DNA from: a virus
Length of the DNA stretch: 20,016 bases
Virus record (IMG/VR): IMGVR_UViG_3300031758_006414
Coordinates: 1 to 20,016 of that record
Reading direction: 5' to 3' (one strand)
Position 1 is the stretch's first letter. Every line of letters starts with the position of its first letter. Below the pieces are notes generated by a model. It worked only from the letters and a program-made list of their open reading frames with translations, had not been told where the DNA came from and searched no databases. Below, in pieces: positions 2,634 through 18,927 of this stretch. A program made the translations under genes and the position numbers.

Positions 2634-2936
2634 ATGGTAAGAGAATTAACATACGAAGAAAGAATCAGATGGTTTATCAACAACCATTATGAAACAGGCA
2701 TGGAGTACGAAGGTCTATTAGTCGGTATGAAAGACACTAATTTAGATTCATTTGAATGGTATAACGAAATAATCTCAATTCCTAAATACGTAGAAGTTTT
2801 AAGTCCTACTGATGAGGTACTTGAAAAACTATCAAGTAAGATTAAGGAATTTAACACACCTGAAGGTGAAAACGATTTTAATGATGGTGTTAGAAGAGGG
2901 TTAGCGTTGGCAATCTCAATAATTAAAAATGGTTAA
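2634..2936 (+). CDS. Hypothetical protein without leader peptide
   Basis: This 100-residue protein is not recognised. It has a helical, charged N-terminus (LTYEERIRWFINNHYETGMEYEGLL) and a C-terminal helix (DGVRRGLALAISIIK) and lacks the [ILV]-x-E leader of the following genes. It has its own TATATTTG box. Its TAA and the stop of the convergent gene at 2933 share the palindromic bases TTAA, so the two genes overlap by 4 bp tail to tail with no room for a separate terminator. Confidence 0.85.
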   Translation: MVRELTYEERIRWFINNHYETGMEYEGLLVGMKDTNLDSFEWYNEIISIPKYVEVLSPTDEVLEKLSSKIKEFNTPEGENDFNDGVRRGLALAISIIKNG

Positions 2937-3811
2937 ATTTCTATGTAAATTTTTTCAGAGTCAAAACCCATACTAGTTAACTTTTTTTTAACCCTTTCTC
3001 TTATTTCACCTCTTTTTGACCAATCCCAGCTGCTTATTCCAGAAAAACTAAGTTTGAACCTTAAACCTTGATGACTTGTTGTTATTTTTATTGCTCGAAT
3101 ATACCGACCACCCATTACTGATTTAATACTTGATTTAATTGATTTTTGATATGAGGGGAGAGTGAATTCTTCAGTTCCTTTGAGTAATATGTAGTCATTT
3201 ATGTCTAGCAAACCATGAGCTGGAGAGCCAAAATCAACTCCCATAAATGTTTTTATTTGGTCTTTAAACGATTCAAAATAAGCGTCAGGACCTACAGAGT
3301 AATGTTCATAAACCTCTTCGTATTTTTCATCCGATACCATCATTTTTGGGAAATCAATTATAATCTCAACTTCAACTTTATAAGGAATAGTTTCTTTAAA
3401 ATTAAAAGTCATCCAACTCGGCATTTTTAAAGATTTGATTATATAATTAATTGGTTTAGAATACTTTTCAGTAAACTTAACGGATGGGCGTAAATTTGGT
3501 AGTGTATGTTTACGTTTTATAACAAATTCTCTACCTATGTTAACTAATTGATTTTGAGACCAATATTCGTCATCATCGTCCATGTCTAATCCGACATATT
3601 TACAAAACTCAACAAAATACTTTTTCAAAAGATAAGACATTGGATATCTACCGACATCCTCACCGTGAGTTGATTTAACCCAAGGTCTAAAATACTCAAA
3701 GAAAACTTCAATGAAATCCTCATCATCATATTCACCTAAATCAAAATCCTCTTGTTCGGAAATTAATTTAAAATAATAATTCAAATGATTTTCTGTGATT
3801 ATGTATTTCAT
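2933..3811 (-). CDS. Large MKYIITEN-leader protein, unknown body
   Basis: At 292 residues this is the longest MKYIITES-type protein in the window. It begins MKYIITENHLNYYFKLISEQ, which carries two candidate protease sites (I5-T6-E7 and I17-S18-E19). An acidic stretch follows (20-32), then an alternating helix/strand body (FKETIPYKVEVEIIIDFP) and a basic C-terminal helix (RGEIRERVKKKLTSMG). No enzymatic motif is recognised. A TATTTAT box lies 5 nt upstream of the ATG, so it forms its own unit rather than being read from the genes at higher coordinates. Confidence 0.92.
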   Translation of the reverse strand: MKYIITENHLNYYFKLISEQEDFDLGEYDDEDFIEVFFEYFRPWVKSTHGEDVGRYPMSYLLKKYFVEFCKYVGLDMDDDDEYWSQNQLVNIGREFVIKRKHTLPNLRPSVKFTEKYSKPINYIIKSLKMPSWMTFNFKETIPYKVEVEIIIDFPKMMVSDEKYEEVYEHYSVGPDAYFESFKDQIKTFMGVDFGSPAHGLLDINDYILLKGTEEFTLPSYQKSIKSSIKSVMGGRYIRAIKITTSHQGLRFKLSFSGISSWDWSKRGEIRERVKKKLTSMGFDSEKIYIEI

Positions 3812-3816
3812 ATTTA

Positions 3817-3823
3817 ATAAATA
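3817..3823 (-). promoter_or_regulatory. TATTTAT late-type promoter box
   Basis: Reads AGTATTTAT on the minus strand, with 5 nt between the box and the ATG at 3811. Same geometry as the other TATTTAT boxes in the window. Confidence 0.6.
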
Positions 3824-3841
3824 CTATTTTAGATTGATTTG

Positions 3842-4138
3842 TTACTCCTTAGAGTCACAATCAGCATCACTAACCATAATCATAATATTGAGAGGAATGA
3901 ATTGTTTGATAAATTTTTCGAGTTTACCACCTAAATCATATCTCGAAGGTCCGTTAAATATAATTAACCCTATATAAAAGTCTTTATCATTTTCAGATTG
4001 AAAAACTGCCATATCACAAATCGAAGACGGTTCAAGATATGTTAATATAATTTGTTCAATTGCGTCACCAAACTTACCTTTATTTAAGTTTTCTTTGTTA
4101 AATTTTCTTATTTGTGATTCAGTGACTATAAACTTCAT
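3842..4138 (-). CDS. MKFIVTES-leader protein, short
   Basis: This 98-residue protein begins MKFIVTESQIRKFNKENL, a variant leader with V-T-E at 5-7. The body has a hydrophobic core strand (FYIGLIIFNGPSRYDLGG) and a C-terminal segment (KFIKQFIPLNIMIMVSD), and it ends with an acidic/Cys tail. The GPSRYDLGGKLEKFI part loosely matches SPGRYNLKNWFML of the next gene (4165), so the two are probably diverged paralogs. It has its own TATATTTATC box. Function unknown. Confidence 0.9.
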   Translation of the reverse strand: MKFIVTESQIRKFNKENLNKGKFGDAIEQIILTYLEPSSICDMAVFQSENDKDFYIGLIIFNGPSRYDLGGKLEKFIKQFIPLNIMIMVSDADCDSKE

Positions 4139-4142
4139 ATTT

Positions 4143-4152
4143 GATAAATATA
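4143..4152 (-). promoter_or_regulatory. TATATTTATC promoter box
   Basis: Perfect TATATTTATC on the minus strand, with TATTTAT ending 5 nt before the ATG at 4138. It lies in the 26-bp gap after the gene at 4165. Confidence 0.65.
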
Positions 4153-4164
4153 AACCAAGTTAGG

Positions 4165-4518
4165 TTATTCAGAGAAAAAGTCGTCTATGTATAGTTTAAC
4201 TTTTTCTTGTAATTTAACCGAATATAGTTTCCATAAACTTTCAGATAATTTATAGTCTTTATCCATGTCAATACCAACAAGCATAAACCAATTCTTTAAA
4301 TTATATCTACCAGGCGATATAAATGTATAATCATCAGAAGTGTTAAATGCTAAGTCATACGGATTATCAGAGTGAGGGTATTGTATGTAAGCAACATACT
4401 TAAATTTGTCGTATTTGTGTCTTCTACCACCAAATATGGTGGTTCTATCGACAAGCATATCAAGAAACTTGTCGTATATTTTTTCGTTTAATTGGGATTC
4501 AGTTATAATGTATTTCAT
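4165..4518 (-). CDS. MKYIITES-leader protein
   Basis: This 117-residue protein has the standard leader MKYIITESQLNEKIYDKFLD (I5-T6-E7). The body has strands around KYVAYIQYPHSDNPYDLAF, a central SPGRYNLKNWF segment and a C-terminal helix with an acidic end (KLYIDDFFSE). The start overlaps the stop of the gene at 4515-4883 by 4 bp (ATGA), so translation is probably coupled and no separate promoter box is present. Function unknown. Confidence 0.92.
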   Translation of the reverse strand: MKYIITESQLNEKIYDKFLDMLVDRTTIFGGRRHKYDKFKYVAYIQYPHSDNPYDLAFNTSDDYTFISPGRYNLKNWFMLVGIDMDKDYKLSESLWKLYSVKLQEKVKLYIDDFFSE

Positions 4519-4883
4519 GATATATTCGCCGACCTTACTGATTTAATATTTATTTCAGGATAAAACGATAGAAAAACTTGTTTCATTAGACCACTCCCAA
4601 AAATTAACCATAATGGATGAGGTAATAACTTATCTAAAAAATTACCTAAATCTCTACTGTAATACAATTCTTTCGATGGTTTTACATATGTTAACAAGGT
4701 TTCTCGATTAGAGTTATAAAGATTGATTCTTTTATCGTCTTCATGATAATATGAGAACATTTTTTGAATTAATGGAACCATTTTCTCACACAACTTATTG
4801 AATTCTTTTTCTTGACGTTCATCAGACCAAAAATCATCTTCAGTTAATCGTTTTAATTGCGATTCAGTTATAATGTATTTCAT
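4515..4883 (-). CDS. MKYIITES-leader protein
   Basis: The start chosen is the ATG of MKYIITESQLKRLTEDDF (122 residues), because that restores the leader seen in all neighbours; an ATG three codons upstream is less likely. After I5-T6-E7 comes a charged helix, then a tyrosine-rich middle (FSYYHEDDKRINLY) and RDLGNFLDKLLPHPLWLIF, which resembles the LGGKLEKFIKQFIPLNIMI part of 3842-4138. It lies 2 bp downstream of 4886-5326 and overlaps 4165-4518, forming a three-gene operon. Function unknown. Confidence 0.92.
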   Translation of the reverse strand: MKYIITESQLKRLTEDDFWSDERQEKEFNKLCEKMVPLIQKMFSYYHEDDKRINLYNSNRETLLTYVKPSKELYYSRDLGNFLDKLLPHPLWLIFGSGLMKQVFLSFYPEINIKSVRSANIS

Positions 4884-4885
4884 AA

Positions 4886-5326
4886 TCACCAATAACCCAT
4901 TAATATGGTTTTTACATTTATATCGAATCGTTTATTTAAAAAATTAAGAAAATCATATCCCCAATTAACGTGAGAACCAAACATTTGTTCAATTCTTTCG
5001 TACATATCTTCACTTATTATAATTGTGTCAAATGATGGGTCTTGGATGTTAGGTTGTTCATAACAAGGTTCAGGTAAATCACCTTTAAGTTCTTCAGGAT
5101 AATCCCCATCATCATCATATTTTTCACCATTAACCAATTTAAATAAGTAGTTATCGTAGTTATCCCCTGGCAATGTAAAACCAACTGCATAAGGGTCACA
5201 ACAAACCCCCATACCACAATTAAAGTCTGCCCAATTATATTCGATATTAGAAAACCCAGGAAATTCCATTTCCAAGTATTTTCTCATAACGTCAATCATT
5301 TTACTTTCTGTAATTATAAACTTCAT
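4886..5326 (-). CDS. MKFIITES-leader protein, first gene of a minus-strand operon
   Basis: This 146-residue protein starts MKFIITESKMIDVMRKYL. Its C-terminal part (IEQMFGSHVNWGYDFLNFLNKRFDINVKT) has the pattern FGxxxxxxxxFxxWFxxxFxxxVK shared with 17532, 17882, 8164, 10752 and 11125-11793, so it belongs to that body family. A Cys pair (MGVCCDPYAVG) and an acidic loop lie in the middle. It heads the operon 5326 to 4165, with a TATTTAT box 6 nt upstream. Function unknown. Confidence 0.93.
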   Translation of the reverse strand: MKFIITESKMIDVMRKYLEMEFPGFSNIEYNWADFNCGMGVCCDPYAVGFTLPGDNYDNYLFKLVNGEKYDDDGDYPEELKGDLPEPCYEQPNIQDPSFDTIIISEDMYERIEQMFGSHVNWGYDFLNFLNKRFDINVKTILMGYW

Positions 5327-5355
5327 CTAAAGATAAATATGTAATATTTATTAAT
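5327..5355. promoter_or_regulatory. 29-bp divergent promoter with back-to-back TATTTAT boxes
   Basis: The gap between two divergent ATGs is only 29 bp. It holds a minus-strand TATTTAT (5333-5339, 6 nt from the ATG at 5326) and a plus-strand TATTTAT (5345-5351, 4 nt from the ATG at 5356). The layout and much of the sequence recur at 8476-8504. Confidence 0.7.
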
Positions 5356-6045: not shown

Positions 6046-6046
6046 G

Positions 6047-6415
6047 ATGAGTATAAGAGAATCCATAAAACAAATATTAAGAGAACAATCGGAGAGGAGC
6101 CGATTAATTGACCTGTATATCACAAAAAGAATGAACTCTTTTGAACAAAGTACAGTTAATCACGGAGGTTATAGTCGAGTCAATTTTAGAGAAAAGAATG
6201 GTAGATTAAGGGTATCAATTTTTTTTAATAGGGTTAAACAAGAATTAGAAGTAACTATGTCAGATAATCTATACGGAGAAATATATGGTATGTTCTCAAT
6301 GGAAGGATGGGTAGAAATACAGAAACACTTAATAAATTGGTTTAAAGATAATTTTGATGGATTAGATGATATAAATGAAATCTATACATTTGATGACGAA
6401 GAATACGTATACTAA
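6047..6415 (+). CDS. MSIRESIKQILREQ-leader protein with an EEYVY-ending body
   Basis: The start at 6047 is preferred over an in-frame ATG at 6026 because it gives the leader MSIRESIKQILREQS (L11-R12-E13) and sits 1 bp after the upstream stop. The 122-residue product has body MFSMEGWVEIQKHLINWFKDNF and ends DDEEYVY. The same body, ending EEQYVY, follows a different leader (MKYIITES) in 10752-11090, so leader and body are separable modules. Function unknown. Confidence 0.92.
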   Translation: MSIRESIKQILREQSERSRLIDLYITKRMNSFEQSTVNHGGYSRVNFREKNGRLRVSIFFNRVKQELEVTMSDNLYGEIYGMFSMEGWVEIQKHLINWFKDNFDGLDDINEIYTFDDEEYVY

Positions 6416-6894
6416 TGAATTTACAAGAACAAATATCAAGAATACATGAAATGATGGATGGTAACAACCGTAATAATAGTTCTGTTATAGAAAGATTATT
6501 AAACATGATGTTTGTTGACAAACATGATATTGTGTGTAAAGTAGAAGTTAAACATCCTGATGAAAGAGAAGTTTTAGATGGACAACCAAAATATAAAAGT
6601 TATAGTTTAACAGTAACATTTATTGGTGGTCCTGACACTGAATATTGGCCAGCTCCATTGTTGCTTCGGGACAAGTATGAAGAATTAATGAATGAAGCAT
6701 GGATGATTGTGTATGACTACACAAATACACCTTGTGATATATATTCCAAGTACGTAAAGGAATGTCCTGATGAAACTAATAATATAAGTCACACCGAACT
6801 AACAGAAAGGTGTTGGAAAGGATATACCCAAAAAGGGATGAAGACAATGTTTGGTAAGAGATATCCTAATTGTGTTAAGAAAACAAAGAAATGA
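6415..6894 (+). CDS. MNLQEQISRIHEMM-leader protein
   Basis: Starts at TAATG, sharing one base with the previous stop. The 159-residue protein has a third leader type, MNLQEQISRIHEMMDGNN, with I10-H11-E12. A strand-rich body follows (VKHPDEREVLD, then YKSYSLTVTFIGGPDTEYWP). The C-terminal region (TERCWKGYTQKGMKTMFGKRYPNCVKKTKK) is strongly basic with two Cys, compatible with nucleic-acid or membrane contact, but no family is recognised. It overlaps the next gene by 4 bp. Confidence 0.91.
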   Translation: MNLQEQISRIHEMMDGNNRNNSSVIERLLNMMFVDKHDIVCKVEVKHPDEREVLDGQPKYKSYSLTVTFIGGPDTEYWPAPLLLRDKYEELMNEAWMIVYDYTNTPCDIYSKYVKECPDETNNISHTELTERCWKGYTQKGMKTMFGKRYPNCVKKTKK

Positions 6895-7226
6895 GCCTAC
6901 AAGAATCCATAAGAAGAATATTAAAGGAGGAAACCAATTCACGTTTAAGTGCCAGACGAAGGTTTCATGAGTTAGATGAGTTGTTATATGAATTACTTGC
7001 AACATATTATTCCCCTGGCAAGATTTGCAAATATCGTAATGAGTATGAATTTTTTGAACACATTACATATACAATAATTGCTGACAACATGTATTACAGA
7101 CATTTTGAACACATCGATGATTTGTCAGAAGAATGGAATCAATTATATCGTATGATGGAGGACTATCTTTTAAAAAAGTATCAAGATAAATTGGAGAAGT
7201 ATTACCACATTAATTGTGGTGATTAA
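6891..7226 (+). CDS. MSLQESIRRILKEE-leader protein, IRRR subfamily
   Basis: This 111-residue protein has leader MSLQESIRRILKEETNS (L11-K12-E13) followed by SARRRFHELDELLYELL. This matches the IRRR-(F/V)-x-x-x-(E/D)-L-(D/E) block of 5356, 8505 and the second half of 8851, and the C-terminal helix MMEDYLLKKYQDKLEKYY also matches. The start overlaps the previous stop (ATGA). It is the last intact gene of the 5356-7226 cluster; a leader relic follows 3 bp later. Function unknown. Confidence 0.92.
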   Translation: MSLQESIRRILKEETNSRLSARRRFHELDELLYELLATYYSPGKICKYRNEYEFFEHITYTIIADNMYYRHFEHIDDLSEEWNQLYRMMEDYLLKKYQDKLEKYYHINCGD

Positions 7227-7229
7227 GAT

Positions 7230-7719: not shown

Positions 7720-7724
7720 ATAAA

Positions 7725-8163: not shown

Positions 8164-8475
8164 TTACATTACATAAGGTTCATCAACAGGAAGTTCAAAA
8201 TTTTTTTCAAACCAATTTGTTAATTTTAAAGTACTATCTATAGGGTCTAATGAAAAAAATGAGGATATTTCCATAATTAGTTTTGCGGATATACCAAGTT
8301 CTTTTGTTTTAACATAATAAGAAAAAATAGGACGATGACTATTCGTCCAAGATTCTTTATTTAACCAAATAAGAATATTATCCCTATCATCAACGGTATA
8401 TAAATCTTTAAACATACTATCAAGGTAGTTAAAGTATATTTTATCCAATTGGGTTTCTGTGATGATGTACTTCAT
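8164..8475 (-). CDS. MKYIITET-leader protein with WFEKNFELPV tail
   Basis: This 103-residue protein begins MKYIITETQLDKIYFNYLDS. The tail FSLDPIDSTLKLTNWFEKNF aligns without gaps to FTMDEPDFTPVISSWVEEVL of the repeat-bearing gene at 11125-11793, making it that gene's best local paralog. It shows what the repeat-gene body looks like without the array: here the protein ends about 12 residues after the helix. It heads a three-gene operon from the divergent promoter at 8476-8504. Function unknown. Confidence 0.92.
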   Translation of the reverse strand: MKYIITETQLDKIYFNYLDSMFKDLYTVDDRDNILIWLNKESWTNSHRPIFSYYVKTKELGISAKLIMEISSFFSLDPIDSTLKLTNWFEKNFELPVDEPYVM

Positions 8476-8850: not shown

Positions 8851-9450
8851 ATGAGTCTAAAACAATCCATAAGAAGAATATTAAGGGAAGATAAAAAAAC
8901 TAAATCAACTAATAAAGAATTTAGTAAATACAAAAATTCAAAGTTTAATACTTTAAGAGATTATACTTTACAAGATATTGTTGATAATTGGGATTCACTA
9001 TCTGACCACAAGAATGAAAACATAAAGACAATAAAACATTTTATTAATAACCCCGATAAGATAACTGATTTGGTTTATGATGAAAAAGGTTTAGAAGATG
9101 GTTACCATAGGTTAATTGCAGCTAAAATATTAAAAAAACCAAGATTTAGTTACAGATTAGTTGAGAACCTACAAGAATCCATAAGAAGAATATTAAGGGA
9201 AGAAACTGAACTACCATCGTATATTAGAAGAAGGGTAACTATGGAAGAATTAGATGAATTAGTTGACGATGTTAAAAATTCAATGGATAATGGTCGGTCT
9301 AGACCCAATACAATATATGGTTTAATACAAGATTTTATAATGTCTAAAGAATCATTCAAGTTAACAGGTGAAACAGAAGAAGAATATTGGTATTCTTATG
9401 AAAAATTTGCAAATCCTTTAGTTGATTATGTTAAATCAAAATTAGATTAA
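8851..9450 (+). CDS. Double-leader fusion: ParB-nuclease-like half plus IRRR-subfamily half
   Basis: This 199-residue ORF is two leader genes in one frame. Part 1 (1-105) has leader MSLKQSIRRILRED, then a segment ending LEDGYHRLIAAKILKKPRF (81-99), which resembles the DGxHRxxAA motif of ParB/sulfiredoxin-fold nuclease domains. Part 2 starts at residue 106 with a full second leader, NLQESIRRILREETELP, where the expected ATG is GAG (9163-9165). It continues YIRRRVTMEELDELV, the closest relative of 5356-6045. Both leaders keep L-R-E, so cleavage of the precursor could release two products. The ParB-like assignment rests on one motif. Confidence 0.9.
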   Translation: MSLKQSIRRILREDKKTKSTNKEFSKYKNSKFNTLRDYTLQDIVDNWDSLSDHKNENIKTIKHFINNPDKITDLVYDEKGLEDGYHRLIAAKILKKPRFSYRLVENLQESIRRILREETELPSYIRRRVTMEELDELVDDVKNSMDNGRSRPNTIYGLIQDFIMSKESFKLTGETEEEYWYSYEKFANPLVDYVKSKLD

Positions 9451-9451: not shown

Positions 9452-9874
9452 ATGAACTTACAAGAATCCATAAGAAGAATATTAAGGGAAGAATCATCAC
9501 CAACAAAAAAACTTAGGGATTTTGTTGCATCAAACGGATTTATAACCGCAAGAAAAGTTTTTGGTAATGATGAGAAATTTTATGAGACAATTGATTTAGA
9601 TGGGTCAGTAGATGATAATTTATTTGTTATAAAAACAATCCTAAATCATGATGTAGTAAATAGAGAGATATGTAACTTCAAAATAACAAAACTATATAAT
9701 GGTAACAGAATCGAAGTCTTAATTTTTATTCCTCAAGTAAATGAAGACGAGGAATCTTATAGTAATAAATTAAAGGAAATTGCGGTTAGTAGAGAAATAA
9801 GTGACCACATTTTTGAATTAGGTGTAGGTACGGTTAGAGGACACAATATAAAGGTTCAAACATGGAAATGTTGA
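9452..9874 (+). CDS. MNLQESIRRILREE-leader protein, NGFxxAxxxxG body
   Basis: This 140-residue protein begins MNLQESIRRILREESSPT. The next segment, LRDFVASNGFITARKVFG, is the same body start seen after the MKYLITES leader in 7258. A strand-rich middle (CNFKITKLYNGNRIEVLIFI) and a C-terminal VGTVRGHNIKVQTWKC follow. It sits 1 bp after 8851-9450 and 1 bp before 9876, mid-operon. Function unknown. Confidence 0.92.
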   Translation: MNLQESIRRILREESSPTKKLRDFVASNGFITARKVFGNDEKFYETIDLDGSVDDNLFVIKTILNHDVVNREICNFKITKLYNGNRIEVLIFIPQVNEDEESYSNKLKEIAVSREISDHIFELGVGTVRGHNIKVQTWKC

Positions 9875-11124: not shown

Positions 11125-11793
11125 TTATTCAATTACATTATGATTTAGAACCTCGTCTACTTTACGTACAAGCATGGTTTCTAACTTATATGTTTCATTC
11201 ACCTTACAATTAAGGGATTCTTCCACCAAATATTCCACAGGATTTTCAGAATGACCTGTTGTGTTTACCTTATAATTCAAAACCTCTTCCACCTTTAAGT
11301 TCAGTTCACGCTCAATAGTTTCTGTTGTGTTCACCTTACAATTCAAGACCTCTTCCACCTCACCCCTAAAATACCCAATGCCTCTTGTTGTTGTGCTTAC
11401 CTTACAATTCAAGACCTCTTCCACCAAAAGGAAAATTGGATGGTCATTACACAGAGTTGTGTTCACCTTACAATTCAAGACCTCTTCCACCTGGGAGAGA
11501 GAGATATCATAGGGTATGAAGGTTGTGTTCACCTTACAATTCAAGACCTCTTCCACCCAAGAAGAAATAACGGGGGTAAAATCAGGCTCATCCATTGTAA
11601 AAAGGACAAAGAACTTAGTAAAGAAACCATATCTCCATAGTAATCTCCCATCTGATTTACAATACCTGAAATACCAAAACTTTTCTTCCCTATCAATGAA
11701 CCATATATAATCATGAAAATGAATAATCTCTACATGAGATAAATCCTTATACAGTTTCTTAAATATTAAATCCTTCAGTCTACTACTCACCAT
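11125..11793 (-). CDS. Leaderless paralog whose 3' end is a CRISPR-like repeat array (22-residue repeats)
   Basis: The start at 11793 (ATG, 6 nt after TAACTTTG) is preferred over a TTG three codons upstream. Residues 1-79 form a body related to 8164-8475 (FTMDEPDFTPVISSW versus FSLDPIDSTLKLTNW) but without the MKYIITES leader. Residues 80-222 are in-frame 22-residue units: VEEVLNCKVNTT plus ten unrelated residues, repeated down to a degenerate VDEVLNHNVIE before TAA. The 12-residue unit fits the normal C-terminal helix of this body family, so the repeat looks native to the gene. No stop occurs in roughly 60 interval codons. Either a real repeat protein or a CRISPR-like array that happens to stay open. 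Confidence 0.7.
   Translation of the reverse strand: MVSSRLKDLIFKKLYKDLSHVEIIHFHDYIWFIDREEKFWYFRYCKSDGRLLWRYGFFTKFFVLFTMDEPDFTPVISSWVEEVLNCKVNTTFIPYDISLSQVEEVLNCKVNTTLCNDHPIFLLVEEVLNCKVSTTTRGIGYFRGEVEEVLNCKVNTTETIERELNLKVEEVLNYKVNTTGHSENPVEYLVEESLNCKVNETYKLETMLVRKVDEVLNHNVIE
11126..11557 (-). CRISPR. CRISPR-like array: seven 36-bp repeats, six 30-bp intervals
   Basis: Repeats lie at 11126-11161, 11192-11227, 11258-11293, 11324-11359, 11390-11425, 11456-11491 and 11522-11557, a strict 66-bp period. The plus-strand unit begins GTTGTG and ends CTTCCACC. The copies at 11324, 11456 and 11522 are identical; those at 11390 and 11258 have 2 and 3 changes; 11192 has about 8; 11126 matches about 20 of 36. 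The intervals share no evident similarity. Degeneration at one end is typical of a CRISPR trailer, placing the leader side at 11557 and transcription on the minus strand. On that strand the repeat can form a 5-bp stem with a 7-nt loop and ends ACACAAC. No cas gene is in the window, and the array lies inside an open reading frame. Confidence 0.6.
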
Positions 11794-11844: not shown

Positions 11845-12147
11845 TTAATTTAAGTGTACGTCAATAGTCAAACCATGGTGTTCGTATGGAGCGAACCCCT
11901 GAAAATTTAACCCCGAGGTCATGACACCAAAATAGTCATATATATCTTTTCTTATTTGTTTCTCTAAGTTCATCTCCTTCATTTTATTTTTAGAGTAAAA
12001 ATTATGGTTGGTTATATATTCATCACTAATCTCGTCCATGTATATATTAATATAGATTTCACCACCATTAGATTCATCAACTATAATCTCAGATGGTTTA
12101 TATAAGACATCAATAAATTTAACAACAGCATTTAAACTTGGCTTCAT
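11845..12147 (-). CDS. Hypothetical protein with TATTTAT promoter but no leader
   Basis: The start at 12147 (MKPSLNAVVKFIDVL, 100 residues) is set by a TATATTTAT box 5 nt upstream; an in-frame ATG at 12180 lies beyond the box. The protein has an N-terminal helix, the strand region EIIVDESNGGEIYINIYMDE, a basic helix (KNKMKEMNLEKQIRKDIYDYF) and a C-terminal GLTIDVHLN. There is no [IL]-x-E leader; the nearest is V-D-E well inside. Its size and helix-strand-helix-strand pattern resemble the leader-bearing neighbours. Function unknown. Confidence 0.85.
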   Translation of the reverse strand: MKPSLNAVVKFIDVLYKPSEIIVDESNGGEIYINIYMDEISDEYITNHNFYSKNKMKEMNLEKQIRKDIYDYFGVMTSGLNFQGFAPYEHHGLTIDVHLN

Positions 12148-12161: not shown

Positions 12162-12371
12162 GTGAAATAATATAACCCAATTACTCACTCCCGTTTTTTT
12201 TACTTCGTAATCGTTCCCCCCACTTTCAGTGGTGGTCACTAAAAAACTTCGTTCATAATTGTGTCATATCATTTCCCCCATATAGTGGTGACATACAAGT
12301 AAATTGTTATGGGGGTAAATTAGTATATAGATGAGGTAATCAAATTATAAGGTCAAGACCTAATAATGGAT

Positions 12372-12397
12372 GATTATAAGGTTATAGACTTATAATC
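12372..12397. repeat. Inverted repeat GATTATAAG / CTTATAATC
   Basis: Perfect 9-bp arms (12372-12380 and 12389-12397) with an 8-nt loop. No T-tract follows, so a terminator is unlikely; a protein site or a structured RNA are alternatives. Confidence 0.6.
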
Positions 12398-12446
12398 CCA
12401 TAGAGTAAGTTAATGAGTAGTAAGTTATGGTGTTCATTTTTAGAGG

Positions 12447-12467
12447 ATGTTCACGGCACGTGAACAT
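12447..12467. repeat. Palindrome ATGTTCAC-N5-GTGAACAT
   Basis: Perfect 8-bp arms (12447-12454, 12460-12467) around GGCAC, with an embedded CACGTG. The size and symmetry are typical of an operator for a dimeric regulator. A half-site-like GTTCA occurs just upstream (12432-12436). Confidence 0.6.
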
Positions 12468-12692
12468 AATGAAATAATGAACAAGTGTTTAACTATAGTG
12501 GTAACTGTATTATAATTGTTATGGTATGTCATTGAAGGGGAAGTTATGGTGGTGTATAATATCGGACAAAATGTCCTCTCGTTGAAGGATAATGAATGAC
12601 TCTTCTAACACACTAAAGTGTTTCCCCGCTTTATGTACCATAAGTAGTATTTTTTACTGGGAATTATATATAGTAAAAAAATTGGTTCCTAC

Positions 12693-12729
12693 GATACTGT
12701 TAAACGGGAAAAATCCGTTTTTTAGTATC
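12693..12729. terminator. Long hairpin with T-tract, terminator-like
   Basis: Outer arms GATACT (12693-12698) and AGTATC (12724-12729) and inner arms AAACGG (12702-12707) and CCGTTT (12715-12720) pair around a 7-nt loop; three bases per side are unpaired between them. A run of T6 lies in the 3' arm (12718-12723). It could terminate plus-strand transcription of an unannotated RNA. Confidence 0.45.
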
Positions 12730-12824
12730 AAGAATGACAATATCGGTGGTAAAAGGTGGGGAAGAATGTACTAATTGTGGGGGTTAAAACCCTGTGAAGG
12801 GATTATCCCCATCATCGAACGAGA

Positions 12825-12934
12825 CTGACATTTTGACAAAAACAAGTTTTTTAACACTTTTTTTTATAAAAAAGTTATCAACAATCCCCACTGACACTAT
12901 GACAGTAAGGGATATTTATAAAAAGTTATTAACA
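12825..12934. repeat. Direct repeats: two TGACA-N3-TGACA and two TTTATAAAAA(A)GTTATYAACA units
   Basis: CTGACATTTTGACA (12825-12838) and CTGACACTATGACA (12891-12904) share TGACA-N3-TGACA. TTATCAACA (12875-12883) and TTATTAACA (12926-12934) each follow a TTTATAAAAA tract. TTATCAACA differs by one base from the DnaA-box consensus TTATCCACA. A third TTATCAACA lies at 12970-12978 inside the next gene. Interleaved repeats plus AT-rich tracts suggest an origin or a regulator-binding array. Confidence 0.55.
12913..12919 (+). promoter_or_regulatory. TATTTAT box with longer spacing
   Basis: GATATTTATAAAAA lies 20 nt before the ATG at 12940; the same GATATTTATAAAAA precedes 18268. It would give a short 5' leader rather than a leaderless mRNA. 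Confidence 0.4.
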
Positions 12935-12939
12935 AATTA

Positions 12940-13248
12940 ATGTGTAAAAATATGTACCATTTAAAAAACTTATCAACAGAGGTTTCCAAGGAAGGAAATT
13001 ATATAACTGTAGAGTACAGTCTAAACGAAAAGAGGGGGATGTGTAAGTATATAGAGAAACCTTCAATGTCAAAGATTCAACCTGGAATACACTTACTATT
13101 AATAGAGGTGGGGATGAGTGATATAATAGATGAGATAAATAAGAAATCCCCACTTAAAGATGAGGATTTAATTTCACTTCAAATGGAGATAAGGGAAGAC
13201 TCCCTAAATAGGATTACTCTGTGGGAGGGTCAAGGTCTTCAGAACTGA
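12940..13248 (+). CDS. Hypothetical protein
   Basis: This 102-residue protein (MCKNMYHLKNLSTEVSKEGN start) has no recognised domain. A strand region NYITVEYSLNEKRGMCKYI is followed by the amphipathic IHLLLIEVGMSDIIDEI and an acidic helix KDEDLISLQMEIREDSL. It lacks the leader peptides found elsewhere. The first codons carry a TTATCAACA repeat (12970-12978). Its 3' end overlaps the convergent small membrane gene by 35 bp. It is the only plus-strand gene in the 12181-14402 island. Confidence 0.8.
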   Translation: MCKNMYHLKNLSTEVSKEGNYITVEYSLNEKRGMCKYIEKPSMSKIQPGIHLLLIEVGMSDIIDEINKKSPLKDEDLISLQMEIREDSLNRITLWEGQGLQN

Positions 13249-13378
13249 CAACATGTCTTTCCCAAAACTTTCTTAACCAATGTTCCTTGGGGAAACTATT
13301 TAGAATTCCTGCTGAGACAATCATGAATACCACAAACAGGATAAAACAACTTAATAGACCTAATAGAATATATTTCAT
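13214..13378 (-). CDS. Small membrane protein, 54 residues
   Basis: It begins MKYILLGLLSCFILFVVFMI, a strong single membrane span (about 3-25), followed by a short basic and aromatic segment (KEHWLRKFWERH) and an acidic tail (SSEDLDPPTE). A TATATTTG box lies 4 nt before the ATG, the same geometry as other genes here, which supports it as real despite its size. It overlaps the 3' end of 12940-13248 tail to tail and starts 17 bp after 13396-13818. The role is unknown; small phage membrane proteins often act in lysis control or superinfection exclusion. Confidence 0.72.
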   Translation of the reverse strand: MKYILLGLLSCFILFVVFMIVSAGILNSFPKEHWLRKFWERHVVSSEDLDPPTE

Positions 13379-13382
13379 AATT

Positions 13383-13390
13383 CAAATATA
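13383..13390 (-). promoter_or_regulatory. TATATTTG box
   Basis: TATATTTG on the minus strand with 4 nt to the ATG at 13378. Confidence 0.6.
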
Positions 13391-13395
13391 GGTAA

Positions 13396-13818
13396 TTAGA
13401 TTTTACTCCTCAAGTATTTGAGACAAGATTTATAATGGAGGAGTTCCATGTTTCTTGCTTCAATCTCATCAGGGTGCTGAGTATAACCGTAGTTAATTAA
13501 TTTATGGACGTAGTACCTTAAGTTCTGAACTGAGTGGGTATACTCATGAATATATGTCCCAACGAATTTCTTAAGGGAGTCAATGTTGTTATAGTATATA
13601 TTGATTCTATGTTTGGTGGGACAATACTGACCATAGTAGTTTCCACTATAATCTTTTCTTACACTAAAGGTGGGAAGTCCCTTATGTTTCTTATACCCAA
13701 TATTATCCTTACAATATTCATTAAGGATGTCACAGATATCACGAAGTTCCTTAATGGTGAAATCCTTGATTGGGGAATAGTCCCTATACTTATGAGATTT
13801 TAATAAACGTTCAAACAT
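13396..13818 (-). CDS. HExxH zinc-metalloprotease-like protein
   Basis: The start at 13818 (MFERLLKSHKYRDYSP, 140 residues) is preferred. The frame extends 47 residues further, but that part is hydrophobic and poorly gene-like and reaches into an inverted repeat (13918-13979). A zincin signature TYIHEYTHSVQN places the zinc ligands at H91 and H95 and the catalytic glutamate at E92. A downstream HPDEIEARNMELLHY (115-129) offers the third ligand (E118 or E120), as in SprT/ImmA-like or DUF-type zincins. It carries no signal peptide or leader. Substrate unknown. Confidence 0.85.
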   Translation of the reverse strand: MFERLLKSHKYRDYSPIKDFTIKELRDICDILNEYCKDNIGYKKHKGLPTFSVRKDYSGNYYGQYCPTKHRINIYYNNIDSLKKFVGTYIHEYTHSVQNLRYYVHKLINYGYTQHPDEIEARNMELLHYKSCLKYLRSKI

Positions 13819-13917
13819 AATGGCTAAGATACAAAAAAGATTATGAATAAAAAATTTGTGTATGTCATTTTTTTTCAGTAACTTTGTTATGTAACCATTT
13901 GAGAAGATGGGGACCGA

Positions 13918-13979
13918 GTAGACTCCACCCTGCTTTATACTTTCCCCATTACTAAACATTAAGGCAGGTTGGAGTATAC
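13918..13979. repeat. Inverted repeat, 16-bp arms
   Basis: GTAGACTCCACCCTGC (13918-13933) and GCAGGTTGGAGTATAC (13964-13979) are complementary at 14 of 16 positions, separated by 30 bp. It lies just upstream of the zincin gene and could be a regulatory hairpin or binding site. Confidence 0.6.
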
Positions 13980-14080
13980 CCTCTGCGATGAAACCTCATC
14001 GAACCCCCAACTGAGCCATTCCCCATTATTGTAATACAAAGGTACGGATTATTTCTGACACTACCAAACTTTCCCCCATA

Positions 14081-14117
14081 AAGTTATGAACATGACATGA
14101 TGTCTGTTGATAAGTTT
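14081..14117. repeat. Inverted repeat of TTATSAACA units around GACATGATGTC
   Basis: AAGTTATGAACA on the left and TGTTGATAAGTTT on the right flank the near-palindrome GACAT-G-ATGTC (14094-14104). The arms match with two substitutions and one extra base. The unit is the same TTATCAACA-like word found at 12875, 12926 and 12970. Confidence 0.6.
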
Positions 14118-14245
14118 ATTTGTATATGTCATTGTTTTGACTTCACCCTATTAGAAGGGATATAAGACACTCTCCCTCTTGGGGGTCTTTTAACTATACC
14201 CATATGGGGATATCTCCCCCTGTATACCCCTATAGGTGGGGGATA

Positions 14246-14269
14246 CCCCTCCCCTCCCCGTATCCCCCC
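14246..14269 (-). other. G-quadruplex motif on the minus strand
   Basis: Plus-strand C4-T-C4-T-C4-GTAT-C6 gives a minus-strand G-run series with four tracts of at least four G and loops of 4, 1 and 1 nt. This is an ideal intramolecular G4 pattern and very unlikely by chance in such AT-rich DNA. Confidence 0.7.
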
Positions 14270-14375
14270 TCCATATATGACATATTGACAGGTCAAAAAG
14301 GGGGGATAATCCCCAATACAAAGTGTATATTAAAAATTCTGGAAAAAAATTTTTGGAAAAATTTCCCCCATATAT

Positions 14376-14416
14376 AACGTGGGTAATTATTACCTTTGTT
14401 ATATGAACGTGGGTAA
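14376..14416 (+). repeat. Direct repeat AACGTGGGTAA, twice at 30-bp spacing
   Basis: AACGTGGGTAA occurs at 14376-14386 and 14406-14416. Between them lie the palindrome GGTAAT-T-ATTACC (14382-14394) and a TACCTTTG box (14391-14398), suggesting a regulated promoter. Confidence 0.55.
14391..14398 (+). promoter_or_regulatory. TAnnTTTG box (TACCTTTG) for an alternative upstream start
   Basis: TACCTTTG lies 4 nt before an ATG at 14403 that is in frame with the gene at 14445. It overlaps the GGTAAT-T-ATTACC palindrome. Confidence 0.45.
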
Positions 14417-14430
14417 AGTTTACTCCAATC

Positions 14431-14440
14431 TATATTTATC
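14431..14440 (+). promoter_or_regulatory. TATATTTATC promoter box
   Basis: Perfect TATATTTATC, four bases before the ATG at 14445. Confidence 0.65.
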
Positions 14441-14444
14441 ATAT

Positions 14445-14786
14445 ATGAAATACATTATAACTGAAAATCAAACGGATAACGTTATTGAAAAGGTGTTAAA
14501 GAAAAGTAACATTCAATATACCATTGAGTATGGAGAAAGAGAATTTTATGGGGAAACATATTTTTATAAATTAAATGTTTGGTTTACAATAGATGGTTAT
14601 AATGTATATAGACCATTTGAGTATTACTATCGTGTTAAAGATAATAATATTGTTGGACTTGAATGGAGTGATGGGATTAACGATATGCACATATTCAAAT
14701 TTCTCCCACCTGAAATGGTTAATGATTATTTTAGAAAAAAGACAAGGGAGTATCTACAGGAAATGTTTGATACGGACACTATATAA
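14445..14786 (+). CDS. MKYIITEN-leader protein, FLPPEMVxxYF family
   Basis: The start at 14445 restores MKYIITENQTDNVIEKVL (113 residues). An in-frame ATG at 14403 with its own TAnnTTTG box would add 14 residues (MNVGKVYSNLYLSY). The body is strand-rich and aromatic and ends with HIFKFLPPEMVNDYFRKKTREYLQEMF. That tail is shared with 15225 (YIPHKILMDYFIEKGKRHLEK) and 16782 (LFKFMPPDMVIKYFSDKVENYLKK), defining a three-member family. First gene of the right-hand plus-strand array. Function unknown. Confidence 0.92.
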   Translation: MKYIITENQTDNVIEKVLKKSNIQYTIEYGEREFYGETYFYKLNVWFTIDGYNVYRPFEYYYRVKDNNIVGLEWSDGINDMHIFKFLPPEMVNDYFRKKTREYLQEMFDTDTI

Positions 14787-15165: not shown

Positions 15166-15174
15166 TAACAAATT

Positions 15175-15205: not shown

Positions 15206-15210
15206 CCCCA

Positions 15211-15220
15211 TATATTTATC
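15211..15220 (+). promoter_or_regulatory. TATATTTATC promoter box
   Basis: Perfect TATATTTATC, four bases before the ATG at 15225, directly after the terminator. Confidence 0.68.
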
Positions 15221-15224
15221 TTAT

Positions 15225-15599: not shown

Positions 15600-15713
15600 A
15601 AAAATTTATTAAAATGGTATAGACCGACCGACCCGAACTCCCTTCGGTCGTTGTCAATCCCCCCGCCCCCTTTTTTTTTCGAGTTTTGTTATATTTATAT
15701 CATAAAGAACATT
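15600..15713 (+). promoter_or_regulatory. Hairpin, C/T homopolymer tract and TATTTAT box
   Basis: CGACCGA (15625-15631) can pair with TCGGTCG (15644-15650). This is followed by C6-G-C5-T9 (15659-15679), an unusual tract in this genome. TATATTTAT (15690-15698) lies 15 nt before the ATG at 15714. The hairpin may terminate the upstream gene, though the T-run is displaced about 20 nt from it. Confidence 0.5.
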
Positions 15714-16379: not shown

Positions 16380-16389
16380 AAAGAACACA

Positions 16390-16713
16390 ATGAACAAAAA
16401 AATAAAATTATCTGAATCTGATTTAATGAGAATTGTTAAACGTGTTGTTAATGAACAAAGTTTTGACGAATCAAATGATTACGAAAAAAAATATGATGGT
16501 CTTGTTTCCCAGTTACGTAATATTATTTTTGACCTTGAAAAAATATCAGAAGAATTTAATCAACTTGGTAGACAAGTTTCTTCAGAGTTGGAATCTTTTG
16601 AAGATGATGACAATTTTGAATTTGACGAATCAAAAGATTACTTAGGGGAAATTGCCTCTGCTTGTTATTATTATGATGACAAAATTAATGACTTCATGAG
16701 AGAATTGGATTAA
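16390..16713 (+). CDS. LSESDLMRIVKRVVNEQ-leader acidic protein
   Basis: The start at 16390 gives the leader MNKKIKLSESDLMRIVKRVV, related to that of 18574 (RLTESQLTKIVKRVIKE), with sites L7-S8-E9 and V20-N21-E22. The rest of the 107 residues is a strongly acidic helical protein (DYEKKYDGLVSQLRNIIFDL, then ESFEDDDNFEFDESKDY) ending in DDKINDFMRELD. This basic amphipathic leader on an acidic body would suit a scaffold-bound cargo. A strong terminator follows. Function unknown. Confidence 0.91.
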   Translation: MNKKIKLSESDLMRIVKRVVNEQSFDESNDYEKKYDGLVSQLRNIIFDLEKISEEFNQLGRQVSSELESFEDDDNFEFDESKDYLGEIASACYYYDDKINDFMRELD

Positions 16714-16732
16714 AAAGTTAATATAAAGTATT

Positions 16733-16760
16733 AAACCCACCTCATCAGGTGGGTTTTTTA
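16733..16760 (+). terminator. Rho-independent terminator, 10-bp perfect stem
   Basis: AAACCCACCT (16733-16742) and AGGTGGGTTT (16747-16756) pair perfectly around CATC, followed by a T-rich tail. The identical stem recurs at 18945-18968. Confidence 0.9.
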
Positions 16761-16768
16761 TTTCATAT

Positions 16769-16778
16769 AGTATTTATC
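16769..16778 (+). promoter_or_regulatory. TATTTATC promoter box
   Basis: AGTATTTATC (TATTTAT 16771-16777) lies 4 nt before the ATG at 16782, 13 nt after the terminator stem. Confidence 0.65.
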
Positions 16779-16781
16779 TAT

Positions 16782-17141
16782 ATGATATACCTTATTAGAG
16801 AATCACAATCTAAAGACGTTATGACGAACTTCCTAAAAAAAATGGGGATTAAAGTTCATATACTGTATTGGCAAGATAATGGTTATGATAGTATAACGGG
16901 AACTGTATATCTTTATAAAGATGAAAAAATGTTGGGGTATACACACGGATATGAATTTTATTTTAAATACGACTCAAGATTTAATAACTTAAAATATGAA
17001 GGACGTTGGCCTTATATCGAGAATCTTGATTTATTTAAATTTATGCCACCTGATATGGTTATTAAATACTTTTCGGATAAAGTTGAAAATTATTTGAAAA
17101 AATTTATTGATGATGGATATTCAACCCTTAGAAAAAGATAA
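16782..17141 (+). CDS. MIYLIRES-leader protein, FMPPDMVxxYF family
   Basis: The start at 16782 is set by the box 4 nt upstream; a longer frame from 16749 crosses both box and terminator. The 119-residue product begins MIYLIRESQSKDVMTNFLKK (I5-R6-E7). It shares LFKFMPPDMVIKYFSDKVENYLKK with 14445 and 15225 and ends in a basic tail (STLRKR). First of four closely spaced MKFIITES-type genes. Function unknown. Confidence 0.92.
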   Translation: MIYLIRESQSKDVMTNFLKKMGIKVHILYWQDNGYDSITGTVYLYKDEKMLGYTHGYEFYFKYDSRFNNLKYEGRWPYIENLDLFKFMPPDMVIKYFSDKVENYLKKFIDDGYSTLRKR

Positions 17142-17146
17142 GTAAT

Positions 17147-17515
17147 ATGAAATTCATAATAACAGAATCACAATTTAATTTGATAGGGTTGGAAAAAAAA
17201 TCTGATTTGTTATATAGATTAATGAAATCATTTTTTCCTGAGAATTATGAGTATGAAAATTCGAATAACGAAACTGAAGTATTTGCAAATGAAAACAATA
17301 TTGAGTTATTGTTTTTTTATGATTGGGATACTAAAGATTTTCACATTGGAGCAAATTTCATTAATGAATTATATGAAGCAACTGAAATACCATTTCTAAA
17401 TGTACATGAAGCGCAAAGAATTCAAAATCGACCAATGTTTGACGAACTAATGAAAGTTTTTGCCAAAAGACATTATGGTTGGGATGTAAATAAAGTGTGG
17501 TTTCATTTTTATTAA
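17147..17515 (+). CDS. MKFIITES-leader protein
   Basis: This 122-residue protein has leader MKFIITESQFNLIGLEKKSD and starts 5 bp after the previous stop. The body includes NNIELLFFYDWDTKDFHIGA and a C-terminal part with FDELMKVFAKRHYGWDVNKV, an instance of the helix-then-V tail common to these bodies. No promoter box of its own, so likely read from 16769. Function unknown. Confidence 0.92.
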   Translation: MKFIITESQFNLIGLEKKSDLLYRLMKSFFPENYEYENSNNETEVFANENNIELLFFYDWDTKDFHIGANFINELYEATEIPFLNVHEAQRIQNRPMFDELMKVFAKRHYGWDVNKVWFHFY

Positions 17516-17517
17516 AT

Positions 17518-17527
17518 TATATTTATC
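17518..17527 (+). promoter_or_regulatory. TATATTTATC promoter box
   Basis: Perfect TATATTTATC, four bases before the ATG at 17532. Confidence 0.66.
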
Positions 17528-17531
17528 TAAT

Positions 17532-17885
17532 ATGAAATTCATAATAACAGAATCTAAAGCCGAACAAATTATCCTGAAATATTTGGATGTGTATATCGAA
17601 CCTGATTATAGTTGGGGACCTGATTTACATAAGTTCTATCGTCAAGAAGTTAAAAACGCTGGTGTTTATGATTTTGTTATTAATGATAGACGAGCTTACT
17701 CTTATTGGGATGGAAATAATAATGATAAACTATTGGAAGTAATGCCGTGGGTTTATGAACAACTTGATAGTTTGTTTGGTTCAATGTGGGAAGATATTTT
17801 TATTGAGTGGTTTGAGAAAAACTCTGGCCTTAAAGTTAAACGATTTGAAAAATACGATGCCGATTGGGTACCAAAAAGAATATGA
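17532..17885 (+). CDS. MKFIITES-leader protein, WFEKNSGLKV tail family
   Basis: This 117-residue protein begins MKFIITESKAEQIILKYLDV. The C-terminal block LDSLFGSMWEDIFIEWFEKN matches LNSMFQDKWKPVFKEWFKEN of the next gene and the tails of 4886 and 8164. Trp is frequent (YSWGPD, YSYWDG, MPWVYE). It overlaps 17882-18247 by 4 bp (ATGA), so the two paralogs are probably translated together. Function unknown. Confidence 0.93.
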   Translation: MKFIITESKAEQIILKYLDVYIEPDYSWGPDLHKFYRQEVKNAGVYDFVINDRRAYSYWDGNNNDKLLEVMPWVYEQLDSLFGSMWEDIFIEWFEKNSGLKVKRFEKYDADWVPKRI

Positions 17886-18247
17886 GATTCGTAATTTCCG
17901 AAAATAGACTGAACGATATTATCCTAAACTTCATAAATAATTATTATGATGTTGATGAGATACACTCCAGTCCATTTCATGATGAAGATGGAAATCCAAC
18001 GAATAAGGCTATTGAGTATTATCTTGGTGATTGGGGAGATGGTGAAGAGATATTCAGATTATATAACGAAAGTTATTGGATAAATCCAGGTGATTTCCGT
18101 AAAGAGTTAAGTCCAATATTAATGATTGAGAATGAGAATTTTGTTTCTCACCTTAATTCAATGTTTCAAGATAAATGGAAACCTGTATTTAAAGAGTGGT
18201 TTAAGGAAAATTTTGGTGAAGAGATAAGAACAATTGATTTTTATTGA
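17882..18247 (+). CDS. MRFVISEN-leader protein, WFKENFGEEI tail family
   Basis: The start at 17882 (MRFVISENRLNDIILNFINN, 121 residues) is preferred to an in-frame ATG at 17864 because it restores the leader (I5-S6-E7) and gives the ATGA overlap. It is a tandem duplicate of 17532-17885, sharing LNSMFQDKWKPVFKEWFKENF at its C-terminus. A central YLGDWGDGEEIFRLYNESYW is acidic and aromatic. Function unknown. Confidence 0.92.
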   Translation: MRFVISENRLNDIILNFINNYYDVDEIHSSPFHDEDGNPTNKAIEYYLGDWGDGEEIFRLYNESYWINPGDFRKELSPILMIENENFVSHLNSMFQDKWKPVFKEWFKENFGEEIRTIDFY

Positions 18248-18254
18248 TATTTAT
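18248..18254 (+). promoter_or_regulatory. TATTTAT box with longer spacing
   Basis: TGATATTTATAAAAA immediately follows the previous stop and lies 13 nt before the ATG at 18268, resembling the box before 12940. Confidence 0.45.
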
Positions 18255-18267
18255 AAAAAAATAAGTT

Positions 18268-18567
18268 ATGAACAGAAGTTATAGTAAAATTAGACATATT
18301 CAAGAGTCCAACCGTTTATTGGAAAATAGACTACTTAATGAACAAACAACAACTGGTACTACGGGAACAACTCAAGTTGATATTAGTGAGTGTTTAAAAC
18401 CTTTAATTGAACAGGTAAAACCGCAAGCATGTAAAGGAACAACCATAGATTCTATGAAATGTTATGAAGAATTAAAACAAGTTGGTGGTCCATTTGCAAG
18501 TGGTGGAGACGTTAGTCTAAAGACTGCATATTTTTGCGTTAGTGATAAATTGGGGATGAATAAATAA
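18268..18567 (+). CDS. SYSKIRHIQESNRLLENRL-leader, Cys-containing small protein
   Basis: This 99-residue protein has a further leader type, MNRSYSKIRHIQESNRLLEN, carrying three candidate sites (I11-Q12-E13, L17-L18-E19, L23-N24-E25). A Thr/Gly linker (TTTGTTGTTQ) leads into a small domain with four Cys (ISECLKP, PQACKG, MKCYEE, YFCVSD), reminiscent of the spacing in 14890-15165. It lies 6 bp before 18574, so probably an operon. Function unknown. Confidence 0.91.
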   Translation: MNRSYSKIRHIQESNRLLENRLLNEQTTTGTTGTTQVDISECLKPLIEQVKPQACKGTTIDSMKCYEELKQVGGPFASGGDVSLKTAYFCVSDKLGMNK

Positions 18568-18573
18568 TTTGAA

Positions 18574-18927
18574 ATGAAGAAAGTAGTAAGATTAACAGAA
18601 TCTCAATTAACCAAAATAGTTAAAAGAGTTATTAAAGAAAACCAAACTGAGAGAGAGTTGGATTTAAGAAATAAACTTAATGATATCTTTTTTGGTCATG
18701 ATGAATACAATATGACAAGTGAACCAGGAGAATTCGGTTTTCTTTCACAAGAACATAGATTAAGTAAAAAGATTAGTCCAAGACAAAGAATTAAAAGAAT
18801 TGAGATGGTTATTAACGACCTTGAAAATTACATTGAAGACTTAAAGGACATTGCACAAGGAGAAGATGTGTATACCCAAAATCCTGAATACGATTCAGTA
18901 TGGAAGGATATTGAAAAGGATATGTAA
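18574..18927 (+). CDS. RLTESQLTKIVKRVIKE-leader protein
   Basis: This 117-residue protein begins MKKVVRLTESQLTKIVKRVI, a basic amphipathic leader with L7-T8-E9 and I20-K21-E22, like 16390. The body is charged and mostly helical (RQRIKRIEMVINDLENYIED) with an acidic end (VWKDIEKDM). Both genes with this leader are followed by the same terminator stem, suggesting duplication of a leader-body-terminator cassette. Function unknown. Confidence 0.92.
   Translation: MKKVVRLTESQLTKIVKRVIKENQTERELDLRNKLNDIFFGHDEYNMTSEPGEFGFLSQEHRLSKKISPRQRIKRIEMVINDLENYIEDLKDIAQGEDVYTQNPEYDSVWKDIEKDM

Follow-up and report, generated by a model that had tools for sequence, protein, structure and literature searches.

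The virus record IMGVR_UViG_3300031758_006414 of IMG/VR, a stretch of 20,016 bases that was analysed whole and is called the window below (G000 among the genomes compared), raises the question of why so many of its short genes, between positions 2933 and 18927, begin with one of a few shared N-terminal peptides. Very probably, these leaders are interchangeable, cleavable propeptides of a T4-type capsid-targeting system that loads cargo proteins into the phage head, and the system is judged to be a greatly expanded variant of T4 capsid targeting, in which the prohead protease gp21 cuts C-terminal to Glu and 10-residue propeptides target the internal proteins (IPs) (PMC9026906). An initial annotation had read the leaders as capsid-targeting and cleavage signals, and that reading gains support from the co-occurrence of leaders with an S77 prohead protease and Gp23 capsid module, from the agreement between leader ends and the capsid-protein cleavage site, from the swapping of leaders among homologous bodies, and from a cut site that falls at the nucleophile of a C45-type N-terminal nucleophile (Ntn) hydrolase, all of which, like the conservation of the leader peptides themselves, were computed directly. 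The initial annotation had not anticipated the last two of these, leader swapping and the C45 nucleophile, and they make the case stronger.

Every leader quoted in the initial annotation is present in the sequence, at or close to where it had been placed, and the claim of more than 25 leader-bearing proteins is borne out by a curated count of 29 genes. These comprise 17 of the MK[YF]IITE[SN]/MGKFIITEEE type, eight of the MNLQESIRRILREE type (one being the variant MNLQEQISRIHEMM), two of the L[TS]ES[DQ]L..IVKRV[IV][NK]E type and two singletons (MDTNRFKQLLESSLG; MNRSYSKIRHIQESNRLLE). That nearly all leaders hold an [ILV]-x-E also stands, since 29 of the interval's 31 genes have the motif within residues 4-24. 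Internal 21-residue windows of the same 31 proteins give 9.0 +/- 2.3, with a maximum of 16 in 2000 draws; taken alone the motif is weak, as about 29% of internal windows have one. The genes of the interval are as follows (lengths in amino acids, aa; a slash marks the putative leader end).

2933..3811, minus strand: leader gene MKYIITE/NHLNYYFKLISE/QED, 292 aa
3842..4138, minus strand: leader gene MKFIVTE/SQ, 98 aa
4165..4518, minus strand: leader gene MKYIITE/SQ, 117 aa
4515..4883, minus strand: leader gene MKYIITE/SQ, 122 aa
4886..5326, minus strand: leader gene MKFIITE/SK, 146 aa
5356..6045, plus strand: leader gene MSLQESIKRILRE/E, 229 aa
6047..6415, plus strand: leader gene MSIRESIKQILRE/Q, 122 aa, its body a homolog of 8164 and 10752
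6415..6894, plus strand: leader gene MNLQEQISRIHEMM, with a C-terminal KGMKTMFGKRYPNCVKK motif common to several PHROGs
6891..7226, plus strand: leader gene MSLQESIRRILKE/E, 111 aa
7258..7719, minus strand: leader gene MKYLITE/SQ, 153 aa
7725..8162, minus strand: leader gene MKYLITE/NQ, 145 aa, body weakly similar (E 0.015) to the MNLKES-led 9876
8164..8475, minus strand: leader gene MKYIITE/TQ, 103 aa
8505..8849, plus strand: leader gene MNLQETIRRILRE/E, 114 aa
8851..9450, plus strand: leader gene MSLKQSIRRILRE/D; an internal leader, NLQESIRRILRE/E, precedes a second body, a homolog of 5356
9452..9874, plus strand: leader gene MNLQESIRRILRE/E, 140 aa
9876..10325, plus strand: leader gene MNLKESIRRILRE/E, 149 aa
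10346..10750, minus strand: leader gene MKYIITE/NQ, 134 aa
10752..11090, minus strand: leader gene MKYIITE/SK, 112 aa
11125-11793 (minus strand) and 11845-12147: the two genes of the 31 without a leader
14445..14786, plus strand: leader gene MKYIITE/NQ, 113 aa
14890..15165, plus strand: leader gene MGKFIITE/EE, 91 aa
15225..15599, plus strand: leader gene MKIILAE/SQ, 124 aa
15714..16379, plus strand: candidate leader gene MDTNRFKQLLE/S, a weaker singleton
16390..16713, plus strand: leader gene MNKKIKLSESDLMRIVKRVVNE/Q, 107 aa
16782..17141, plus strand: leader gene MIYLIRE/SQ, 119 aa
17147..17515, plus strand: leader gene MKFIITE/SQ, 122 aa
17532..17885, plus strand: leader gene MKFIITE/SK, 117 aa
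17882..18247, plus strand: leader gene MRFVISE/NR, 121 aa
18268..18567, plus strand: candidate leader gene MNRSYSKIRHIQESNRLLENRLLNE/Q, a weaker singleton
18574..18927, plus strand: leader gene MKKVVRLTESQLTKIVKRVIKE/N, 117 aa

Glu at position 7 is invariant in all 15 strict MKYIITE-type leaders, yet synonymous differences make up about half of the codon pairs that changed (219, against 224 non-synonymous), so selection acts on the peptide rather than on the DNA. A role for the leader DNA as a regulatory element was considered and rejected for the leaders classed as A-type, in which synonymous changes are frequent; the MNLQES copies, with 36 synonymous against 111 non-synonymous changes, are too recent for this comparison. 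As DNA patterns, a control peptide, MKYGDTE, gave two matches as against at least 119 for MKYIITE, and a second control gave none.

The bodies, described as different, are not so in every case: several are distant paralogs that fall into small families (6047/8164/10752; 7258/10346; 5356/8851; 14445/16782; 17532/17882), and neither Pfam nor PHROGs returned anything convincing, or any known match, for the leader-gene bodies of the window. This paralogy, together with the few synonymous differences among the MNLQES copies, is what would be expected if the common N-termini were relics of recent duplication and mosaic recombination with no targeting role. That explanation is extremely improbable, however, because homologous bodies swap leaders across phages, because the A-type leaders are kept at the peptide level despite many synonymous changes, and because unrelated leaders end at the capsid cleavage motif and at an enzyme nucleophile. 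Swapping is already visible within the window, where the body of 6047 carries MSIRESIKQILRE and the homologous 8164 and 10752 carry MKYIITE, and the body of 2933..3811 is led in relatives by MKFIITES.. or by MKKIHTLTESDL..VVRTVLE. Across the loci of relatives, clustering by body sorts the 682 unique leader proteins into 269 groups, and in 27 of the 99 clusters with several members the leaders belong to more than one class; these cluster counts are approximate, since leaders in relatives were called by regular expression and false positives occur (for example exonucleases and glycan enzymes). The YMFFSN protein (PHROG 27331) joins one body to leaders MNINYIIRKVLRE, MKRIIRLNESDVTNLVKRVLNE, MRITESQLNNLVKKIVTE, MNRITSREINSLVRKIVNE and others, and despite this variation in leader type all 35 distinct N-termini of the family end in [KR]..[hydrophobic]-x-E.

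The same boundary is found in the major capsid protein of the relatives. The head-protein check that the initial annotation called for comes out in its favour, as the Gp23-type protein carries the motif at its own cleavage site, LINE/[AS], in the register of LTE/A in T4 gp23: all 75 orthologs read QAS[HFY]LINE, then A or S, then a flexible TSDGSSGSFE stretch. The alignment columns of the T4 site hold IVSE/A in Flavobacterium phage immuto and LLRE/S in T4 gp24, and phage immuto, which has an annotated gp21-type protease and a Gp23 major capsid protein, also has candidate leaders MKKSQLRQIIKE/A and MKKQILSEQFRRMQKLAGIITE/S. Near the capsid gene of the relatives is encoded a protein, group X, whose leaders vary (for example MLNQLIKKVLLE, MKNNKIHINE and MYRDRLEEDVRNWYFKKPINE) and are followed by ATSDSGGGRGSY (ATSDSSGSRGSY), resembling the post-cut capsid sequence ATSDGSSGSF.

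A cleavable leader calls for a protease, and no gp21 was found in the window record because that record is a 20-kb fragment. The relatives supply it, and an objection that the phage group might lack a gp21-type prohead protease consequently falls: PF03420 (S77/gp21) is present in five of the seven IMG/VR records of at least 200 kb among the endolysin relatives, in 13 of 16 contigs bearing a C45 cargo gene and in 17 of 20 MKYIITE-bearing contigs, including every one of at least 137 kb (17/17). The head module of these phages consists of terminase, gp20 portal (E 5e-75), gp21, a presumed gp22 and Gp23 (PF07068, E 4e-74) in T4-like order, with terminase and scaffold assigned by position and general resemblance; the presumed scaffold has no Pfam or PHROG family match. 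Leader genes lie within this module: in G001, gp21 and the presumed gp22 flank one with an LTE leader, and in G014 one with an IITE leader separates the portal gene from gp21. The window is tied to the S77-bearing group by three genes whose order is conserved in the relative G001 (229 kb, positions 12270-14216):

304-741, plus strand: response-regulator-like gene, the only convincing Pfam/PHROGs match within the window
738-1415, plus strand: gene of 225 aa, order conserved in G001
1428-2255, plus strand: endolysin/chitinase, order conserved in G001

The endolysin is at most 85% identical to proteins of large virus contigs, which span 200-320 kb and are syntenic with the window. The phage of the window is a member of a T4-superfamily jumbo phage group, for which the closest published group has predicted Bacteroidota hosts. 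At the DNA level almost nothing in sequenced phages matches the window; the only near match is at 6810-6894, a C-terminal motif CWKGYTQKGMKTMFGKRYPNCVKK that ends several PHROG families. The huge phages LR745206 and LR756500, found through endolysin matches, showed no leaders in a 50-kb sample of each genome.

An enzyme family among the cargo of the relatives places the leader end more precisely. NCBIfam C45_proenzyme (NF040521) matches 45 of the 46 members of this C45-type family, although the first member, at 39 bits, falls short of the curated cut-off of 85. An AlphaFold 2 model built with 46 orthologs has a predicted local distance difference test (pLDDT) score of 85, as against only 31 from a single sequence, and a fold search with this model gave VIA Z scores of 21.1 for CV2077, 20.4 for NAAA and 19.4 for isopenicillin N acyltransferase (IAT), with a range of 18-21 across IAT, NAAA and acid ceramidase; a PDB profile search by sequence, unlike NCBIfam and the fold search, did not find the Ntn fold, and no relative of the protein was found in bacterial genomes. 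Residue 21 of the model aligns with chain residues 103 of IAT, 126 of human NAAA and 143 of acid ceramidase, and with residue 1 or 2 of penicillin V acylase and bile salt hydrolase, which, judging in part by entry titles, are the catalytic N-terminal cysteines. This Cys is invariant in the cargo family and is directly preceded by [ILMF]-x-E in all 49 distinct orthologs (three of the 49 rows, LSE/C or LNE/C, were read by inspection), although the leaders themselves are wholly different in sequence and length, the shortest being MAKLLNE/C. C45-type enzymes work only when their N-terminal Cys is free, which puts the necessary cut at the leader end, and the seven residues of MAKLLNE/C and the ten of MKNNKIHINE/G show that the length of MKYIITE can be enough for a full leader. 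Cleavage by the prohead protease after [hydrophobic]-x-E, which the capsid site, the swapped leaders and the C45 cysteine jointly favour, would then also create the catalytic N-terminal Cys, such that packaging would activate the enzyme.

Several points weigh against this reading. Cellular C45 enzymes mature by autoproteolysis, so the E/C boundary could be autocatalytic, in which case the C45 family would not be an independent line of evidence; C45 proenzymes are annotated as autoproteolytic, and the precursors of isopenicillin N acyltransferase and NAAA cleave themselves before the Cys. Autoproteolysis is nevertheless an unlikely account of the boundary, because the propeptides are short and unrelated and yet their last three residues always fit the cleavage motif of the capsid protein, and we know of no requirement for hydrophobic-x-Glu in cellular C45 enzymes. 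The window itself has no head module, and its connection to one runs through relatives. S77 also occurs in three of ten unrelated control contigs, a set small and not matched for size (it includes shorter contigs), so that the contrast with leader-bearing contigs is indicative only. The long LTESDL..IVKRVINE leaders hold two [hydrophobic]-x-E sites, either of which may be the one that is cut, a search of the literature found no virion proteome of this phage group, and many carriers could belong to the structural core and not be injected as effectors.

The last of these points amounts to a distinct explanation, in which the leaders are cleaved head propeptides and their carriers are mostly scaffold, core or other structural proteins, with few or no injected effectors. 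Leader genes do occur within the head operon, two conserved families, YMFFSN and SGSY, are encoded near the major capsid protein, and some T4 core proteins undergo similar processing. Such a role for most carriers is possible but rather doubtful, given how numerous the leader genes are (34-40 in each of two jumbo genomes) and how variable, and mostly accessory, their bodies. Leaders are carried by 22 of 231 genes in G001, by 40 of 389 in G038 and by 34 of 444 in G034, where residue shuffling leads one to expect 1.8, 3.5 and 2.5, respectively. Among the leader-bearing bodies of relatives are phage lysozymes, PPK2 (E 1e-70), a GDSL hydrolase and a DHH+SET protein, to which inspection adds HExxH proteins (candidate proteases) and two proteins that resemble an L,D-transpeptidase and a P-loop kinase; lysozymes, PPK2, GDSL hydrolase, SET and Ntn hydrolase would be odd as scaffold. 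The label of effector derives from these enzymes of relatives and not from the window's own bodies, and none of the carriers tested has a Pfam or PHROG match named as a T4 internal protein. A further alternative, that uncut leaders direct proteins to the tail, the baseplate, a membrane or a phage compartment, draws on the carriers that adjoin tail genes; it is very unlikely, because tail and replication genes of G001, like those of sugar metabolism, mostly lack leaders, and because leader ends fit the capsid protease motif and no known secretion signal, with no signal-peptide hydrophobic core seen on inspection.

In both G001 and the window, the sequence TATTTAT, likely a late promoter, is found in the 30 bases ahead of 22% of genes, as against 1% of random stretches. 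In G001 it precedes 11 of 22 leader genes as against 48 of 209 other genes, and stands before many genes for structural proteins, among them gp21, the presumed gp22 and large genes of the tail region. It can lie a few bases ahead of the ATG, as at the minus-strand starts 3811, 4138, 5326 and 8475 of the window, and so near the start codon that transcripts may be almost leaderless. This arrangement fits expression of the leader genes late, alongside the head genes.

Under the propeptide reading, the shared N-terminal peptides would be swappable propeptides of 7-50 residues. Proteins bearing them would be synthesized late and brought by the leader into the prohead core, where the S77 protease would cut after [hydrophobic]-x-E; the mature bodies would remain in the capsid alongside the DNA and would most likely be delivered with it into the host at infection. 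That the window proteins are targeted, cleaved, kept in the virion, injected and functional in the host is in each case proposed by analogy with T4. Extended to the whole group of T4-like Bacteroidota jumbo phage, this becomes a modular leader code with 30-50 proteins per virion, a protease that activates zymogens, and an enzyme arsenal that enters the host, a picture toward which the evidence leans modestly. Gene 8851..9450, with an N-terminal and an internal leader (NLQESIRRILREETELPSYIRRR), looks like a fusion of two cargo genes, a putative polyprotein whose two bodies the prohead protease could split.

Other features lie beside the leader genes. Just ahead of the cluster, the product of gene 2263-2613 resembles a leader in its C-terminal stretch (RMKVMMGLNENRLSNK), and C-terminal processing also occurs in T4 Alt and gp21 (PMC9026906). 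Between the two clusters of leader genes, positions 12180-14440 have few open reading frames (ORFs), C-rich tracts and sparse coding, and within this region 13396-13959 may encode an HExxH-type metallopeptidase (YIHEYTHSVQ; DUF6782 E 0.025). The leader-less ORF 11125-11793 contains, at 11192-11558, an array resembling clustered regularly interspaced short palindromic repeats (CRISPR), with six 36-nucleotide repeats (GTTGTGTTCACCTTACAATTCAAGACCTCTTCCACC) and five unique 30-nucleotide spacers at a period of exactly 66, one end being degenerate. The array is in frame with the ORF, the repeat corresponding to the C-terminal segment VEEVLNCKVNTT of that gene, and homologs in L007/L224, L194, L117, L187, L021, L128/L052 and L112 have the same in-frame architecture with other repeat sequences, as the L092 homolog probably does; L180 and L158 (period 65) have the appearance of ordinary arrays. 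The spacers have no convincing target among the relatives' loci, and Rfam gave no CRISPR match for the array.

If the propeptide reading is correct, hundreds of hypothetical genes in huge environmental phages would become a recognisable class of head-packaged, protease-matured cargo, callable from sequence alone and with exact mature N-termini predicted. The capsid protease would double as an enzyme activator, the leaders would offer a natural set of packaging tags for putting proteins into T4-like capsids, and the virus could bring into its bacterial host a protein cargo of unusual size and variety. No earlier description of these leaders was found in the open-access literature searched.

Among known phage, the huge Bacteroidetes phages that encode bS21 are probably an overlapping group with large genomes; TerL, portal, prohead protease and major capsid protein are clustered and the protease is expressed late, and the available part of that paper does not describe leaders or cargo (PMC9723584). 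Heads of the SPN3US/phiKZ type likewise package many proteins from which a prohead protease removes N-terminal propeptides after Glu; SPN3US gp245, however, cuts after A-x-E in nine substrates with mostly long propeptides of 111-254 residues (PMC10052503), whereas the phages considered here have [ILV]-x-E, short propeptides on dozens of proteins and a different capsid lineage. The closest likeness is to T4 IPI, IPII, IPIII and Alt (PMC9026906), which share a short N-terminal propeptide ending in [hydrophobic]-x-E, a gp21/S77 protease, a Gp23 cleaved at the corresponding position, mature bodies of diverse kinds and a T4-like head operon. T4 has about four such carriers, as compared to some 30-40 per genome here, and unlike the T4 internal proteins, several leader types swap on the same body and the bodies include enzymes, among them lysozymes, PPK2, DHH+SET, metalloprotease-like proteins and Ntn hydrolases.

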